From: Neisseria subflava
Lineage (GTDB): Bacteria > Pseudomonadota > Gammaproteobacteria > Burkholderiales > Neisseriaceae
Assembly (NCBI RefSeq): GCF_024205745.1
Contig: NZ_CP073117.1
Location: 124,001-188,000 of the forward strand
DNA length: 64,000 bases
Reading direction: 5' to 3'
Part shown: piece after piece, positions 22,694 through 53,173 of the stretch
Layout: every line of letters begins with the position of its first letter
How positions within the stretch are numbered: the first letter of the stretch is position 1
Program-made: the position numbers and the translations under genes
Notes under the pieces: model-generated
What the model was told of the DNA's origin: nothing
The model's input: only the letters and a program-made list of their open reading frames with translations
Databases searched by the model: none

Positions 22694-23734
22694 TTAGTTT
22701 TTCCCCTTAAATGAGAGTAGCCAAACATCAGGATTGTCGGTTGAACGAAACTCAAAATGATCGTTACCGTATTTATGCAGAGTCTCTTCTGTGACAGGTT
22801 CCCCCGTTCTTAAACAATCAGCCGCCTCTAAACGTCCTTTAACCCATTTACCAAATATGGTTTGATCACCTTTTGAACTGAAATTTTTACCATTTTGTCC
22901 TGTGGTATTACATTCAAATTTCCAGCCATCATCCGTGATGACGGTAAACTCTTTTTGTTTTGGGTATCCTTCTGTACCTAAAAATTTTGTTGATACAATC
23001 AACTCTGCTTCATACCATGGCCTAGGTAAATAAAATCCACGTTTATTTTTACGGCCTTTGGCAAAAAATCGGTTTAAACTGCTTTCTGGGAAGGTTTTAA
23101 CTGGTAAATCAAAGTGATAAGTCGATATTTGTGAAAAAAGCTGCTCAAGCATAGAATCATTCACTTTTTCGACTCCCAGACAATTCTCTAAATGAACATT
23201 ATGTTCTTTAAAATCAGTTGGTTTTGCTACTTGACTAATAGTCACACCCAATTGCTGGATAACCTGATCTATATTTTTATGTAATTTAGATGCCGTCTGA
23301 ACATCATTCAAATGAACCATCGTTTCATAGGTGCGCTCAGTATTATCCCAAAAGCAAGTAAGATTAGCAGAACCAATCAATCCATGAGTTTCATTCTGAT
23401 TCTTAAACGAATACATTTTTCCATGAAATTTCACACGTGGAGAAACATATACTGCCCCACGTTGCTTATCTTGCAAAAAATAATTTAATTCACAAAGACT
23501 GTTGTATTGAGGACGACTAAACCCTTCTAAATAATGCATACCAACTAATAATTTTATTTTCTGGTTATGTTCGCTATCTTCTAAAATTTTATGTAACTCT
23601 TTGACTGCATCATTAGAAACATAGCCTGTTGCCATTAAAATTTCATTGGCAGACATAAATAAATCCATCCAAACTTTATTTAATGGCTTATCTGTAATTC
23701 GTGCATTAGCAATATTAGAAAAAACAGTATTCAT
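22694..23734 (-). CDS. PLD-type restriction endonuclease (NgoFVII-like)
   Basis: 346 residues. A phospholipase D catalytic motif is seen as [13 protein letters not shown] followed by [11 protein letters not shown] (His-x-Lys, then Gly-Ser-x-Asn), the active site used by metal-independent nucleases such as BfiI and the RE_NgoFVII family. The C-terminal half ([33 protein letters not shown]) would be the DNA-recognition domain. It overlaps the methyltransferase stop by 4 bp, so the two are coupled. NgoFVII cuts GCSGC; whether this enzyme shares that specificity is not known. Contains one AT-dialect DUS at 23290-23301. Confidence 0.87.
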
Positions 23735-24855
23735 CGTTTTCCCCCTCGAATTTTGCTTAGTCGGTCATGAAATAAAACGTCCTTCTCTGCTTTCAACTTC
23801 TTATGCAAATCTACTTTTTTATAGTTACCTGAAAAAATTGGTAAGAGGGTTCTTGCCAATTCAACCACGCCTTGAGGTGGTACCGCATTGCCAATTTGAC
23901 GACGAACTTCTGTCGTTGAGCCAACAAACTCAAAGTCATCAGGAAAGCTTTGTAATCTTGCACGTTCACGATTGGTAAAGGCTCGGGGTTCAGGAAAATG
24001 ATAGCCCCAAGTACCACCGCCACCCGCAGCAATAATCGTTGTAGAAGGTCTATTACGGTGCATTCGGCGATAAACAAGGCTTAACATACTTTTTACATAT
24101 AAAGGATGTTCTTTAGGAATATCACTATAGTTTCCTCCCTCTGGGATTAGTTCTAAACGTTTACGGGTTTGCTCACTAATTTTCAACAATTCATTATTAC
24201 TGGCATTCTTGGGAATATTAGATATCGCTTGACCAGCAGTTACATATGGTTTTAATCCATTTTCGCCAGTTTCATTGTGTGTCGGTTCTGGATGATGAAA
24301 ATCAAATCCTGTATCCAAACGTACACCAACAATCAACACACGCTCACGAAATTGAGGTACACCAAATTCTGCAAAGTTATATAGCTTTGCCTGAACGTAA
24401 TAACCGCAATTCTCAAAGTCAGTAATAATTTGCTGAATGGCTTTTTTCTTGTTGGCAGTCAACAAACCTTTTACGTTCTCAGCAACAAAGACTTTTGGTT
24501 TTTTTACATTTACAAAACGTAAAAAGCTTTTATAAAGATTGCCACGCTCACCCTCTAGGCCCGGCTGTTTCCAAATCATAGAAAAATCTTGGCAAGGGAA
24601 TCCGCCTAAAATGATGTCGCAATCGGGAATAGTTGGATCGTTAGGATCTATTTGTTCAATATCGCCTTCTACGATGACATCGCCAATATTTTTACGGAAA
24701 CTTTCGCAAGCCCAATGGGAAAAATCGTTCGCCCAAACAGTTTCGTAACCAGCTTGGTGAAAACCTAAATCTAAACCTCCACATCCTGAAAATAGAGATA
24801 GAATTCTGGGTTTCTTGTCAGATGAATTAAACTTTGAGATTTTTTTAGATGACAT
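23731..24855 (-). CDS. DNA (cytosine-5-)-methyltransferase
   Basis: 374 residues with the C5-methyltransferase motifs in order: motif [18 protein letters not shown], motif IV with catalytic cysteine [10 protein letters not shown], motif [10 protein letters not shown], motif [15 protein letters not shown], and C-terminal motif [13 protein letters not shown]-like sequence ([17 protein letters not shown]). The region between VIII and IX is the target-recognition domain. Start at 24855 has AGGAG nine bases upstream. It protects the host from the downstream nuclease. Upstream lies a 22-unit AAGGC tract, and a short leader frame ends 8 bases inside this gene. Low GC suggests transfer. Confidence 0.95.
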
Positions 24856-24916
24856 AGGATTTCACTCCTATGTATAGATTTGATAAAAACCCTTGAAGGG
24901 ATTTTAATAGAGAACT

Positions 24917-25033
24917 AGGCAAGGCAAGGCAAGGCAAGGCAAGGCAAGGCAAGGCAAGGCAAGGCAAGGCAAGGCAAGGCAAGGCAAGGCAAGGCAAGGC
25001 AAGGCAAGGCAAGGCAAGGCAAGGCAAGGCAAG
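24917..25033. repeat. Pentanucleotide microsatellite (AAGGC)22
   Basis: Twenty-two perfect AAGGC units occupy 24921-25030, with a partial unit on each side. The tract lies about 60 bp upstream of the methyltransferase start, inside its predicted leader. Reading the minus strand gives Leu-Ala-Leu-Pro-Cys repeats in every frame with no stop. Perfect tracts of this length are unstable by slipped-strand mispairing and are the usual hallmark of phase variation in Neisseria. Confidence 0.98.
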
Positions 25034-25138
25034 CTTACCATCGTTTTTTTGAAATAAAATCATTTTTCTAAAACTTCCATGTAAATTTTTCCTATTATGC
25101 CGCAAAAAAACAGCAAATGCCGCTGCATTAAACCAGTT

Positions 25139-25179
25139 ATGAATACTTGAAATTATAAATAAAGTATTCATAATCCCAA
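25139..25179 (-). promoter_or_regulatory. Predicted promoter with operator-like dyad for the restriction operon
   Basis: On the minus strand a TATAAT box (25157-25152) is preceded after 16 bp by TTGGGA (25179-25174). The -10 box sits in the spacer of a perfect 10-bp inverted repeat, ATGAATACTT (25139-25148) and AAGTATTCAT (25162-25171). Together these could be a controlled promoter. Sequence inference only. Confidence 0.5.
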
Positions 25180-25249: not shown

Positions 25250-26626
25250 ATGGCAAAAGCCCCCAAAACCATCTACCAATGTTCCGAATGCGGCGGCACT
25301 TCTCCGAAATGGCAGGGTAAATGCCCGCATTGCGGCGAGTGGAACACGCTTCAGGAAAGCCTTGCCGCGCCCGAACCGAAAAACGCCCGCTTCCAATCTT
25401 GGGCGGTGGATACCTCGACCGTCCAATCCCTCTCCGCCGTGACCGCCACCGAAGTGCCGCGCAATCCGACGGGCATGGGCGAACTCGACCGCGTATTGGG
25501 CGGCGGTTTGGTCGATGGTGCGGTCATCCTGCTTGGTGGCGACCCCGGCATCGGCAAATCCACGCTGCTGTTGCAAACCATCGCCAAAATGGCGCAAAGC
25601 CGCAAAGTGCTGTACGTTTCCGGCGAGGAATCCGCCCAACAAGTTGCCCTACGCGCGCAACGTTTGGAACTGCCCACCGAAGGCGTGAACCTGCTTGCCG
25701 AAATCCGTATGGAAGCGATTCAAGCGGCGTTGAAACAGCATCAGCCCGAAGTCGTCGTCATCGACTCCATCCAAACCATGTATTCCGACCAAATCACTTC
25801 CGCCCCCGGCTCCGTGTCGCAGGTGCGTGAATGTGCCGCCCAACTGACGCGCATGGCGAAACAAATGGGCATCGCCATGATACTGGTCGGACACGTGACC
25901 AAAGACGGCGCGATTGCCGGCCCGCGCGTATTGGAGCATATGGTCGATACCGTGCTGTATTTCGAGGGCGACCAGCATTCCAACTACCGTATGATACGCG
26001 CCATCAAAAATCGCTTTGGCGCAGCAAACGAATTGGGCGTGTTTGCCATGACCGAAAACGGTTTGAAAGGCGTATCCAACCCGTCTGCCATCTTCCTCGC
26101 CAGCTACCGCGACGACACGCCCGGCTCGTGCGTTTTGGTCACACAAGAAGGCAGCCGCCCGCTTTTGGTCGAAATTCAGGCATTGGTCGATGACGCACAC
26201 GGCTTTACCCCCAAACGCCTTACCGTCGGTCTCGAACAAAACCGCCTCGCCATGCTGCTCGCCGTCCTCAACCGCCACGGCGGCATCGCCTGCTTCGACC
26301 AAGACGTGTTCCTCAACGCCGTCGGCGGCGTCAAAATCGGCGAACCTGCCGCCGACCTCGCCGTCATCCTCGCCATGCTCTCCAGCTTCCGCAACCGACC
26401 CATGCCTGAAAAAACCGTGGTTTTCGGCGAAATTGGCTTAAGCGGCGAAGTCCGCCCTGTTGCACGCGGACAAGAGCGGCTTAAAGAAGCGGAAAAACTC
26501 GGCTTCAAACGCGCCATCGTTCCAAAAGCCAATATGCCGCGCAATGCCAAAGAGTTTCCAAACCTGAAAATCTACGGCGTCAGCAGTTTGCAGGAAGCGA
26601 TTGACGTTTGTCGTGACGGGGACTAA
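25250..26626 (+). CDS. radA: DNA repair protein RadA
   Basis: 458 residues. N-terminal C4 zinc finger (CSECGGTSPKWQGKCPHCG), RecA-like ATPase core with Walker A GGDPGIGKSTLLLQ and the RadA-specific KNRFG motif (AIKNRFGAANELG), and a C-terminal Lon-protease-like domain (NAVGGVKIGEPAADLAVI). It promotes branch migration in homologous recombination, which fits a naturally transformable species. The ATG follows an AGGGAAAA ribosome site. Confidence 0.97.
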   Translation: MAKAPKTIYQCSECGGTSPKWQGKCPHCGEWNTLQESLAAPEPKNARFQSWAVDTSTVQSLSAVTATEVPRNPTGMGELDRVLGGGLVDGAVILLGGDPGIGKSTLLLQTIAKMAQSRKVLYVSGEESAQQVALRAQRLELPTEGVNLLAEIRMEAIQAALKQHQPEVVVIDSIQTMYSDQITSAPGSVSQVRECAAQLTRMAKQMGIAMILVGHVTKDGAIAGPRVLEHMVDTVLYFEGDQHSNYRMIRAIKNRFGAANELGVFAMTENGLKGVSNPSAIFLASYRDDTPGSCVLVTQEGSRPLLVEIQALVDDAHGFTPKRLTVGLEQNRLAMLLAVLNRHGGIACFDQDVFLNAVGGVKIGEPAADLAVILAMLSSFRNRPMPEKTVVFGEIGLSGEVRPVARGQERLKEAEKLGFKRAIVPKANMPRNAKEFPNLKIYGVSSLQEAIDVCRDGD

Positions 26627-50053: not shown

Positions 50054-53000
50054 TCAGCCGATAATATTGGCGACTGTCAGCTGCGCAGCATCTTCATTGT
50101 AGAAACGTGCAAACTCTGTGCTGCTTTCAGCTCCTGCGCCCCGATACGCCAAGGTTTTTTGGGCGCTGTTGAACACAAGATACGAACGATCGGGGCTGAA
50201 TGTATCCACATCGCGGACAAACAAATCCGCCCAGCTAACCTGGCTTTCTTTCTCATTGAGCAGCGGACGCATGGCGCTCAAATCCAACTTGTCTTTGACA
50301 GGATTGAAATCCAGCAAGTGATCCAGTTTACCCTCGCGGACATCCCATGCAGTAAATGCCACCGTATCTCTACCCTCGCCGGTAACAATGGTATCGCCAC
50401 CCAATCCGCCTGCCAGATAATCATTGCCATCGCTGCCTTTCAATACATCGTCAGCCGCGCTGCCATGCAAGGCCGCTACGCCTTTGCTGTCTCCACTGAT
50501 GCTGACCGACCAATCAAAGCCGTTTTTCCCTAAGTCGATTTCCTTGCCGTTTGCCGCATATGCCATCTTATCGCCCTGCTGGTGCGCCGTCATTTCCACG
50601 CCTTTGAGCGACAAGACGTTACCGGCCGCATCCTCAGTTTGAACCACCGCCAACATAGGTCGGTCATCCGTATAAATGGCAGAGGTACCGGTTGCATATG
50701 GTGTTTCTTGGGCATCATTGCTGCTAGTGCCAAATTTGCTTTCAATGCCGTCTGAAAAACCGTCTTGGTCAGAATCACTCAAATAAGGATTGTCGTAATG
50801 CTTGTCAATACGCTTACCTTGGGAGAAGTATTGTTCAAGTTTGGTATCTGACTCATAAAAGCTGGTCATATTGTGTTTGCCCCACACATCATCACTCTTG
50901 AAATCCAAAACCTTGGCATTCGGGTATCTGCCCAATCCTTTATGAACTTGGGACGCAGCCGCTCCAACAGCTGAACCTGCTGCAATGCCCCATGGCCCAA
51001 ACAAAAGCCCACCGATTAACGCACCAATACCCGCACCTGTTTTACCTGAAAAACCATCTCCAACCCATTCACCTTTGATTACATACGAATTGGTTTCATA
51101 CAGATGGCGTGCCTGGGTTGTATCGGAGTCGTCCGTGATACGTGTTTTCGCCATTTTATCGGCCATATCCCGTGCTTGTTTTAAGGCATCAGGAGAATTG
51201 CTGTCCACATTCAAAACAGCCGGATTAAACAGACTGCTGCGTTTAAAATCGCTTGCCCAATCATAACGCTGCTGCATGGTATGTGCGGCAAAATATTCTG
51301 CAAGATAGCCGCCCAACGAATGTCCGGTCGAATACACATTTTTGGCATGAAGCGTATCAATGTAGCGGGCAATGTCATTCAGATATTTGGTTTGAGCCGG
51401 CAAATTACCGGTCATAATGTTCAAATCGGCCAAAACATCTTTAATGCTGGTCGCCTGTGTGCCTCTAAACGCCACCACTACATTGTCCCAACCGCCTTTC
51501 TTGTTCGCATTGCCGAAAATCGCATAATCCAAACCGCTTCCCAAACTATCGGCCCTAAGCAATTGCCATTTCCCAACCAGCTCAGATACATTGGCCTGAT
51601 TGCTAAAATATTTGTCGTTAATATTCTTAGCAAGAGAAGCATATTGCGAATTCCACCAATAATTGCCTTTAAATACAGTATGCAAAGCAGAAGGAGATTC
51701 ATAAGCCAATGAAGAGAACATCCGCAAATCACGCTCGGAAACATTCCACTCCTGCGGATTACGGTCAATGGCATCAACCAAACCGTCACCATCACTGTCT
51801 TTGGTAAAGATAGAATGTTGCGCCTGTTTATAACTGGGTCGGACAATATCATTGGCTCTTTTTTGAGTGGCAATATTTTCCCAATACTGCAAAGAGGCCG
51901 TCTGAAGATGCTGCCCTTGTACGGCGGCATGTGTGACGGCATGACCATCTTTATAAAGCACACGCATGATTACGCTGTCTTGGCTGGGATCATGCTCGGG
52001 ATATTTGAAGATTTCAGCAACATCCATTTCCTTATCCGTGAATTTATACTTGGATACAGATGAATAGGTCTTGTGTTGCTCTCTAAGGGTCAACGTTTCG
52101 CCTGTTTCGTGAATCGTAAATACCCAATCTTTGAGGGCCGGATTACTGGCGCTTGGACGAGTAGTAAGACTGACATCCTTCGTACTCAAACCTTCAAAAT
52201 GAATGCTGTTATGGCCCAGATTGTCTGAAATGACATCATGGCCGCTGCCACGGCGGAATACATAAGTATCGTCTCCGCTACCGCCTTCAAGCGTGTCATC
52301 TCCTTCGCCACCGTCTAAATAATCATTACCGGTATCGCCGCGTAAAATATCGTTGCCGGTACCGCCGTAAAGTTTGTCGTCGCCGTCACCTGCCAACAAC
52401 AAGTCATAGCCTGCCTCTCCGCGAAGCACATCATTGCCGCGGCCTCCGATCAAACGGTTATTGCCGATGTTGCCGATTAAGACGTTGTCGGAATGGTTGC
52501 CGAAACCGAAATAATTGCCGCTGCCGGTCAAGGTCAAGTTTTCGACATGAGTCGGCAAACGGTAAGTCATACCTGTGTAGACCGTATCAATGCCGCCATT
52601 GGCTTCTTCGATAACGACATCGTTTTGACTGTCTACATAATATGTATCGTTGCCATTACCGCCGCGCATTACGTCTGCACCGATTCCGCCGTCTAAAACA
52701 TCGTCGCCTTCGTTTCCTTCCAAATAATCGTTGCCATGATCGCCACGCAAAATATCGTTGCCGTCGCCACCATAAAGTTTGTCGTCATCATCGCCTGCCA
52801 ACAGCAAGTCATTACCCGCCCCTCCGTAAAGCACATCCTTGCCACGGCCGGCGCTCAAACGGTTGTTGCCGCTGTTGCCGATAAGGACGTTGTCGGAATT
52901 GTTGCCGAAACCAAAAATATTATCGTGGCCGGTCATCGTCAGGTTTTCAACATAATTCGGCAACGTATAAGTCGTATGGGTATAAACCGTATCCGTACCC

Positions 53001-53173
53001 TCGCCGTACCTTTCAACGATTTGGTCATTCCTGTTGTTCACAATAAAGGTATCGTTTCCTAAACCGCCGTAAAAAATATTGTGTCCCAAGCTGCCATACA
53101 GCACATCATCACGACGCGTGCCGATAATCACTATAGACTCTTCGTTATTAGGTTGGTTTTGAGTTTCAGTCAT
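50054..53173 (-). CDS. RTX exoprotein with lipase-like alpha/beta-hydrolase domain
   Basis: 1039 residues, no N-terminal signal peptide. Residues 20-326 hold RTX calcium-binding nonapeptides (GGxGxDxLx), including a duplicated unit of about 125 residues (39-163 and 174-298) with a linker containing LPxxVENLTxTG. A lipase-like hydrolase domain follows, with the nucleophile elbow STGHSLGGYLAEY (Ser619). Two DxDxDG-type calcium sites occur at 459-471 (DSDGDGLVDAIDR) and 800-812. A glycine-zipper segment (GAGIGALIGGLLFGPWGIAAG) lies at 713-733. A short RTX block (903-940) precedes a C-terminus fit for type I secretion. No secretion genes are adjacent. Likely a secreted lipase or esterase. Confidence 0.88.
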   Translation of the reverse strand: MTETQNQPNNEESIVIIGTRRDDVLYGSLGHNIFYGGLGNDTFIVNNRNDQIVERYGEGTDTVYTHTTYTLPNYVENLTMTGHDNIFGFGNNSDNVLIGNSGNNRLSAGRGKDVLYGGAGNDLLLAGDDDDKLYGGDGNDILRGDHGNDYLEGNEGDDVLDGGIGADVMRGGNGNDTYYVDSQNDVVIEEANGGIDTVYTGMTYRLPTHVENLTLTGSGNYFGFGNHSDNVLIGNIGNNRLIGGRGNDVLRGEAGYDLLLAGDGDDKLYGGTGNDILRGDTGNDYLDGGEGDDTLEGGSGDDTYVFRRGSGHDVISDNLGHNSIHFEGLSTKDVSLTTRPSASNPALKDWVFTIHETGETLTLREQHKTYSSVSKYKFTDKEMDVAEIFKYPEHDPSQDSVIMRVLYKDGHAVTHAAVQGQHLQTASLQYWENIATQKRANDIVRPSYKQAQHSIFTKDSDGDGLVDAIDRNPQEWNVSERDLRMFSSLAYESPSALHTVFKGNYWWNSQYASLAKNINDKYFSNQANVSELVGKWQLLRADSLGSGLDYAIFGNANKKGGWDNVVVAFRGTQATSIKDVLADLNIMTGNLPAQTKYLNDIARYIDTLHAKNVYSTGHSLGGYLAEYFAAHTMQQRYDWASDFKRSSLFNPAVLNVDSNSPDALKQARDMADKMAKTRITDDSDTTQARHLYETNSYVIKGEWVGDGFSGKTGAGIGALIGGLLFGPWGIAAGSAVGAAASQVHKGLGRYPNAKVLDFKSDDVWGKHNMTSFYESDTKLEQYFSQGKRIDKHYDNPYLSDSDQDGFSDGIESKFGTSSNDAQETPYATGTSAIYTDDRPMLAVVQTEDAAGNVLSLKGVEMTAHQQGDKMAYAANGKEIDLGKNGFDWSVSISGDSKGVAALHGSAADDVLKGSDGNDYLAGGLGGDTIVTGEGRDTVAFTAWDVREGKLDHLLDFNPVKDKLDLSAMRPLLNEKESQVSWADLFVRDVDTFSPDRSYLVFNSAQKTLAYRGAGAESSTEFARFYNEDAAQLTVANIIG

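Follow-up and report, generated by a model that had tools for sequence, protein, structure and literature searches.

Genes and features of the locus

A restriction-modification (RM) operon of three genes (M, R and N) was identified in a 64,000-nucleotide stretch of the Neisseria subflava genome (contig NZ_CP073117.1, positions 124,001 to 188,000; hereafter the window). The operon is preceded by a small leader open reading frame (ORF) that contains a long pentanucleotide repeat tract. The features of the locus, all on the minus strand, are as follows.

24917..25033, minus strand: (TTGCC)n tandem tract (AAGGC on the plus strand), 117 bp
24845..25063, minus strand: leader ORF containing the tract, 72 codons, with its ATG at -208 from M
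24865..24869, minus strand: AGGAG, Shine-Dalgarno (SD)-like site of M; the 5' arm of the hairpin takes in four of the five bases
24852..24873, minus strand: predicted hairpin ACATAGGA-GTGAAA-TCCTATGT over the ribosome-binding site and AUG of M, 8 bp, -9.8 kcal/mol
23731..24855, minus strand: M, C5-cytosine DNA methyltransferase (M.NgoAVII type), 374 aa
22694..23734, minus strand: R, NgoFVII/NgoAVII-type nuclease (PLD + B3-like), 346 aa
20804..22693, minus strand: N, directly after R
25094..25099, minus strand: CATAAT, a -10-like element and candidate promoter, in a conserved TTTTGCGGCATAAT block

The original prediction of a C5 methyltransferase and a PLD nuclease was borne out, as M belongs to the C5 methylase family PF00145 and R contains PLD and B3-like domains. 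R and the solved R.NgoVII (PDB 4rct) aligned over their full length (E = 8.2e-156), and the gonococcal M and R proteins are 91% and 67% identical to those of the window, respectively. The start of R and the end of M share 4 nt. By sequence the operon is an NgoAVII-type RM operon. Membership of M in the type III mod family was rejected, since M is a C5 methylase and the tract lies outside it, ending 61 nt upstream. An in-frame N-terminal extension of M was also rejected because a TGA precedes the ATG in frame; it lies 9 nt upstream in the window, as it does in three relatives, whereas its position in the relative G024 is -36.

The M and N proteins of the window are 92% and 93% identical to those of the relative G045, whereas the R proteins are only 63% identical. 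The R protein of G045 is 97% identical to that of Haemophilus parainfluenzae. These values suggest that R may have been swapped while M and N stayed nearly the same, and that such swaps may also have taken place between Neisseria and Haemophilus (window, L019, L017 and L029).

The repeat tract and its length variation

The array was found exactly where it had been predicted, with a period of 5, 23.4 copies, 100% matches and 22 full units in register. The predicted distance of about 60 bp to the start of M was measured as 61 nt. A pattern of four units matches only here in the 2,213,981-base genome, and the reversed four-unit pattern has no match in it. The locus has the long, perfect, non-triplet tract expected of a contingency locus.

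Twelve loci with a complete leader were compared, namely those of the window, G032, G045, G022, two Neisseria gonorrhoeae records (2022NG-0032 and 2022NG-0076), G024, Rodentibacter caecimuris, H. parainfluenzae, G514, G465 and G464. A Cardiobacteriaceae metagenome-assembled genome (MAG) with an incomplete leader is the thirteenth leader locus. The TTGCC tracts of the window, G032 and G045 are 117, 92 and 67 nt long, and the TTGCG tracts of G022, 2022NG-0032 and 2022NG-0076 are 72, 102 and 77 nt long, respectively. The longest perfect TTGCG pieces are 149 nt in G465 and 205 nt in G464. The tract of R. caecimuris is of the TTGCG type with interruptions, the longest perfect stretch measuring 85 nt, and G024 contains a TGCC tract of 25 nt. 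A long tract is missing in two leader loci, G514 (about 2 units) and H. parainfluenzae (0 units). The Cardiobacteriaceae contig starts within an apparent CGCCAAA repeat of about 2 copies, as judged by eye. The repeat unit thus differs across loci (TTGCC, TTGCG, TGCC and CGCCAAA), and in none is its length a multiple of 3.

The expectation that unit number would vary across related genomes was confirmed in gonococcal-type loci, the set in which within-species variation was assessed. Over about 7.9 kb compared, 2022NG-0032 differs from G022 by 2 substitutions and from 2022NG-0076 by 7. The two N. gonorrhoeae tracts differ in length (102 vs 77 nt), as does that of the near-identical G022 (72 nt), so tract length varies while the background is nearly constant. 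Steps of 25 nt separate the tract lengths of the window, G032 and G045 and those of the two gonococci, which may be due to chance.

Reading frames of the leader

The window leader starts at 25063, passes through the tract and ends with a TAA 8 nt inside M. Its ATG is preceded by a weak GGAAG at -15 to -11, and the frame can also be read as a longer ORF from a start at 25171. In all twelve complete-leader loci, one frame ends exactly at +8 inside M (11 TAA and 1 TGA). The corresponding frame of the Cardiobacteriaceae contig ends at +5. The other two frames end at -51 and -62 in six loci (window, G032, G045, G022, 2022NG-0032 and 2022NG-0076), at -65/-72 in G024, -92/-45 in G514, -87/-38 in H. 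parainfluenzae, -71/-9 in R. caecimuris and -62/-9 in G465 and G464; closures in R. caecimuris, G514 and H. parainfluenzae were counted from about -90.

An upstream frame overlapping the start of M, as translational coupling would need, is available in 12/12 loci and is the actual leader frame in 5/12 (window, G024, R. caecimuris, H. parainfluenzae and G514). The actual leader ends at -51 in G032, G022 and 2022NG-0032, at -62 in G045, 2022NG-0076 and G465, and at -9 in G464. H. parainfluenzae and G514, which have no long tract, are both in the overlap frame; the probability of this by chance is 1 in 9.

The arrangement was compared with 44 window ORFs (at least 150 aa, longest, with little overlap). 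An ATG-started frame that is open for at least 115 nt upstream and closes within +12 occurs at five of them. Closure at +8 is unique to M, and the other four, including R, close at +1. An overlapping upstream frame is not rare by itself; its combination with a stem over the AUG and a tract is rare.

Each leader has a start codon followed by an open frame. The leader peptide was considered as a conserved protein and rejected, as it has no Pfam match and its synonymous excess is not consistent. In the leaders of the window (24845-25063), G032 and G045 (L018 and L019), another ATG lies 22 nt further downstream and opens a different frame. This frame reaches +8 in G045, which makes a weak third expression level conceivable.

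Predicted hairpin over the start of M

With G-U pairs counted, a stem of 8 bp or more is predicted over the SD site and AUG of M in 12/13 leader loci; the exception is H. parainfluenzae, where the predicted sequestration of the start is weak. The predicted energies of the stems alone range from -9.8 to -13.8 kcal/mol in 12 leader loci. Among the 44 window ORFs, an 8 bp stem occurs at M alone and the runner-up has 6 bp. The leaderless G476 and Psychrobacter loci have no stem of at least 6 bp over the start of M. Mean pair probability of the hairpin is 0.91-0.99 in 11/12 full natural leaders of differing tract length, so tract length alone should not open it.

In mononucleotide shuffles of six loci, the observed stem was matched by 74, 92, 38, 16, 13 and 1 per 2000 in the window, G022, G024, R. 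caecimuris, G464 and the Cardiobacteriaceae locus, respectively. Conservation of the stem was assessed in a 10-row alignment that omits G024 (its loop length differs) and the two gonococci (copies of G022). In this alignment, 98.8% of cells pair. The covariation score and the number of cells changed on both sides were each equalled by 1/500 shuffles, and further pair types by 20/500. A search of Rfam at gathering score returned three tRNAs in the window and nothing else.

Candidate promoter

The CATAAT element lies upstream of the tract, 30 nt ahead of the leader ATG. The TTTTGCGGCATAAT block around it is conserved in an alignment of four Neisseria loci and, by eye, in Rodentibacter, and no -35 element was recognised beside it. 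A consensus scan proposes TTGGGA-16-TATAAT at 25179-25152 instead, which is not conserved in G022. The same scan gave no promoter-like match on the M strand between the tract and M.

Distribution and relatives

M was detected at E <= 1e-60 in 5/83 Neisseriaceae genomes, counting that of the window. At E <= 1e-100 it was detected in 7/140 genomes of the family of H. parainfluenzae (two query genomes counted) and in 1/12 of the family of the Cardiobacteriaceae MAG, which is that MAG. R. caecimuris, H. parainfluenzae and this MAG are further relatives from the genome collection, and M is also present in the two N. gonorrhoeae records (L029 and L030), which PLSDB files as plasmids even though, at 2.17 Mb, they have the length of a chromosome. 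The NgoAVII-type operon of G024 (L021) lies at a different locus with different flanks. Its M, R and N genes are broken by stops and frameshifts, and its leader is still in the overlap frame. No close relative of R was found in viral contigs, and phages gave two distant matches of about 30.5% identity.

Neither the tract nor such a leader was seen in six homologues (G481, G476, a Psychrobacter plasmid, G264, G927 and G869), the leaderless call being made by eye with an uncertain M start codon in G481, G927 and G869. At the Psychrobacter locus, the frame of the +8 type ends at +5 yet is open only from -19. No M ORF was found in the stretch of G315 examined, and L046 (G893; no fit to the motif) and G179 were left out of the leader comparison. 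A tree built from 16 M proteins, with G024, G022 and 2022NG-0076 omitted, places the 10 leader rows together with 2 leaderless rows in one group (support 94/98). Because 8/13 inner branches are open, the tree does not decide between loss and gain of the leader.

Elsewhere in the window, degenerate tandem repeats of 405 bp and 27 bp occur at 52316-53069, possibly in an RTX-type repeat gene.

Proposed switch and alternative explanations

The tract, the leader frames with their stop positions, the gene junctions and the natural length variation of gonococcal-type loci are read directly from the DNA. They point, with moderate confidence, to a phase-variable translational-coupling switch in front of the NgoAVII-type RM operon, in which random changes of unit number probably raise or lower the output of the system. 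The transcription start, the translation of the leader, the hairpin in the cell and the coupling, with its direction and size, are predicted parts of this model. The mRNA would begin upstream of the leader ORF. Slipped pairing would alter the number of non-triplet units and with it the frame in which ribosomes exit the tract. In one frame of three, ribosomes would pass through the hairpin and stop 8 nt inside M, allowing efficient initiation of M. Coupling would then carry translation on to R, which overlaps M by 4 nt, and to N, which follows R directly. In the other frames, translation would end before M is reached (51-72 nt short of it in the Neisseria loci), leaving the hairpin closed, and M, R and N would be made at a lower, leaky level. 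As M comes first in the M-R-N order, switching would be safer. The original prediction of a phase-variable RM system switched from outside the methyltransferase gene stood as to the tract lying outside M and its natural variation; it was refined in that the tract lies in a separate leader ORF, and the effect on expression is a prediction. The switch is further supported by the stem predicted over the start of M in nearly all leader loci, by the overlap frame of the leader where a long tract is missing, and by G024, which retains the design (tract, +8 stop and stem) with a different sequence at a different locus.

Several results weigh against the switch. The NgoAVII site (5'-GCGGC-3') is listed as methylated in 25/25 gonococcal strains in PMC6789123, with a non-significant test for WHO G, yet none of the three gonococcal-type alleles compared here is in the overlap frame. 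If the 25 strains were mixed in unit number, the switch would not be ON/OFF for methylation; it would then either control M, R and N in a graded manner or have no effect. Graded control seems more likely than full ON/OFF control of methylation. Alternative frames ending at -9 in R. caecimuris, G465 and G464 might open the hairpin too. In H. parainfluenzae the stem is interrupted and its pair probability is just 0.21. At single loci, shuffled sequences quite often form an equal stem, for example 74 per 2000 for the window and 92 per 2000 for G022. Each locus by itself is therefore weak evidence; the set of loci is stronger, but the loci are related and their counts are not independent. For pairs altered on both sides, the count was equalled by 188/500 shuffles and is not unusual. 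Ratios of synonymous to nonsynonymous codon differences, summed over pairs, are 6/80 in the leader frame vs 15/56 and 11/69 in the other frames upstream of the hairpin, and 59/246 vs 39/242 and 44/271 over the whole 60 nt, which include the start of M.

The same methylation data, the non-overlap gonococcal-type alleles and the inconsistent peptide-level constraint on the leader are what would be expected if the tract were a slippage-prone relic without effect and M were translated independently at every length. This explanation is unlikely, as the units at this position differ but are all non-triplet and share the stop position and a stem at the start codon of M, even in G024 with its different sequence, and both loci without a long tract have their leader in the overlap frame. 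A transcriptional effect, in which the tract alters promoter activity or the spacing of a regulator, is distinctly improbable. The position of the tract outside M and the A+T-rich 61-nt spacer are consistent with it, and excerpts of PMC2791445 describe repeat-dependent promoter control of meningococcal nadA, a precedent in Neisseria. In the window, however, the conserved -10-like block, a candidate promoter, sits upstream of the tract, no promoter-like match follows between the tract and M, and such an effect would leave the exact +8 stop and the hairpin at the AUG unexplained.

The inverted repeat over the AUG is a near-perfect palindrome as DNA and, since some C5 methyltransferases repress their own genes via an extra N-terminal DNA-binding domain, might be an operator for autoregulation rather than an RNA hairpin. 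This is very unlikely. In the 10-row alignment all non-Watson-Crick positions except one mismatch are G-U in the mRNA sense, and the fold is kept with other sequences and loop sizes in G024 and the Cardiobacteriaceae contig. M has about 20 residues before motif I, which leaves no room for such a domain, and the 18-base motif (at most 1 mismatch) occurs once each in 4/83 Neisseriaceae genomes, always at this locus. An action of the tract on the divergent gene at 25250-26626 (plus strand), which from its domains we take to be radA-like, is scarcely credible. This gene starts about 217 bp away on the opposite strand with a promoter-like site at 25147-25174 in between, but the tract and leader accompany the RM genes beside other neighbours in G024 and Pasteurellaceae (neighbours judged by eye).

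The translational-coupling switch may also be viewed more broadly. Neisseriaceae, Pasteurellaceae and Cardiobacteriaceae include naturally competent bacteria. It is tentatively proposed that the operon is a mobile RM cassette of such bacteria with its own frame-reading throttle, whose stop position and AUG hairpin would have persisted as the hypermutable tract was remade from other units. Restriction would then be set at two or three levels, with enough methylation kept for safety, and populations would be mixed, open or closed to foreign DNA.

Comparison with known systems

The order and domains of M, R and N are the same in the window as in the NgoAVII and CglI systems (PMC4267653), and the main text of that paper does not contain the words phase, promoter or frameshift. 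CglI and gonococcal NgoAVII are reported to be ATP-dependent and to cleave and methylate GCCGC/GCGGC (PMC4267653, PMC5737866 and PMC6789123). For mutants of other methyltransferases, altered mRNA levels of gonococcal NGO0364/NGO0365 are listed, namely 4.6-fold for NGO0364 in PMC9577141 and 1.60-fold and 1.78-fold in PMC2667262; it may be speculated that these changes reflect differences in repeat number between clones. The locus is not mentioned in the portions consulted of the phase-variation papers PMC5953494, PMC5320596, PMC1097732, PMC5084427 and PMC6232127, whose supplements were not covered and might hold an unnamed entry. Nor was the switch found in the portions consulted of the literature on repeat units, coupling and phase variation, phase-variable Type II enzymes and gene tags, supplements again not covered.

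The phase-variable neisserial RM genes named in excerpts of PMC5953494 are modA, modB, modD and a type I specificity subunit. In modA, modB and modD, as here, repeat tracts shift a frame at methyltransferase genes, but these are type III with the tract inside mod, unlike the separate leader ORF and C5-cytosine methyltransferase described here. According to part of PMC6241649, Moraxella modO has a (CAACG)n tract upstream of its ORF, for which transcriptional phase variation has been hypothesised; the tract position is like that of M, whereas modO is type III. When reverse-complemented, the modO unit CAACG becomes a rotation of TTGCG. The mgtQ-mgtB system shares a short upstream ORF and a structure-hidden start region with this locus, but mgtQ is a translation-aborting ORF by the title of PMC8092293, and no hypermutable repeat is named in the excerpts of it. 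Hairpins and possible translational coupling are mentioned in RM control, without repeats, in part of PMC12707154. Haemophilus lex2A contains tetranucleotide repeats (excerpt of PMC3116884).

The lex2A-lex2B operon likewise has coupling and a repeat tract in a small first ORF, but it is a glycosyltransferase operon and not an RM operon. If the switch exists, an ATP-dependent C5 system would join the phase-variable neisserial RM genes and extend them to Pasteurellaceae, and repeat changes would act via translational coupling with the gene itself left unbroken. Surveys restricted to repeats in coding regions or promoters could misread such loci. As a variant of known repeat-driven phase variation the switch is partly supported, the observation of the tract having been confirmed and its interpretation refined.
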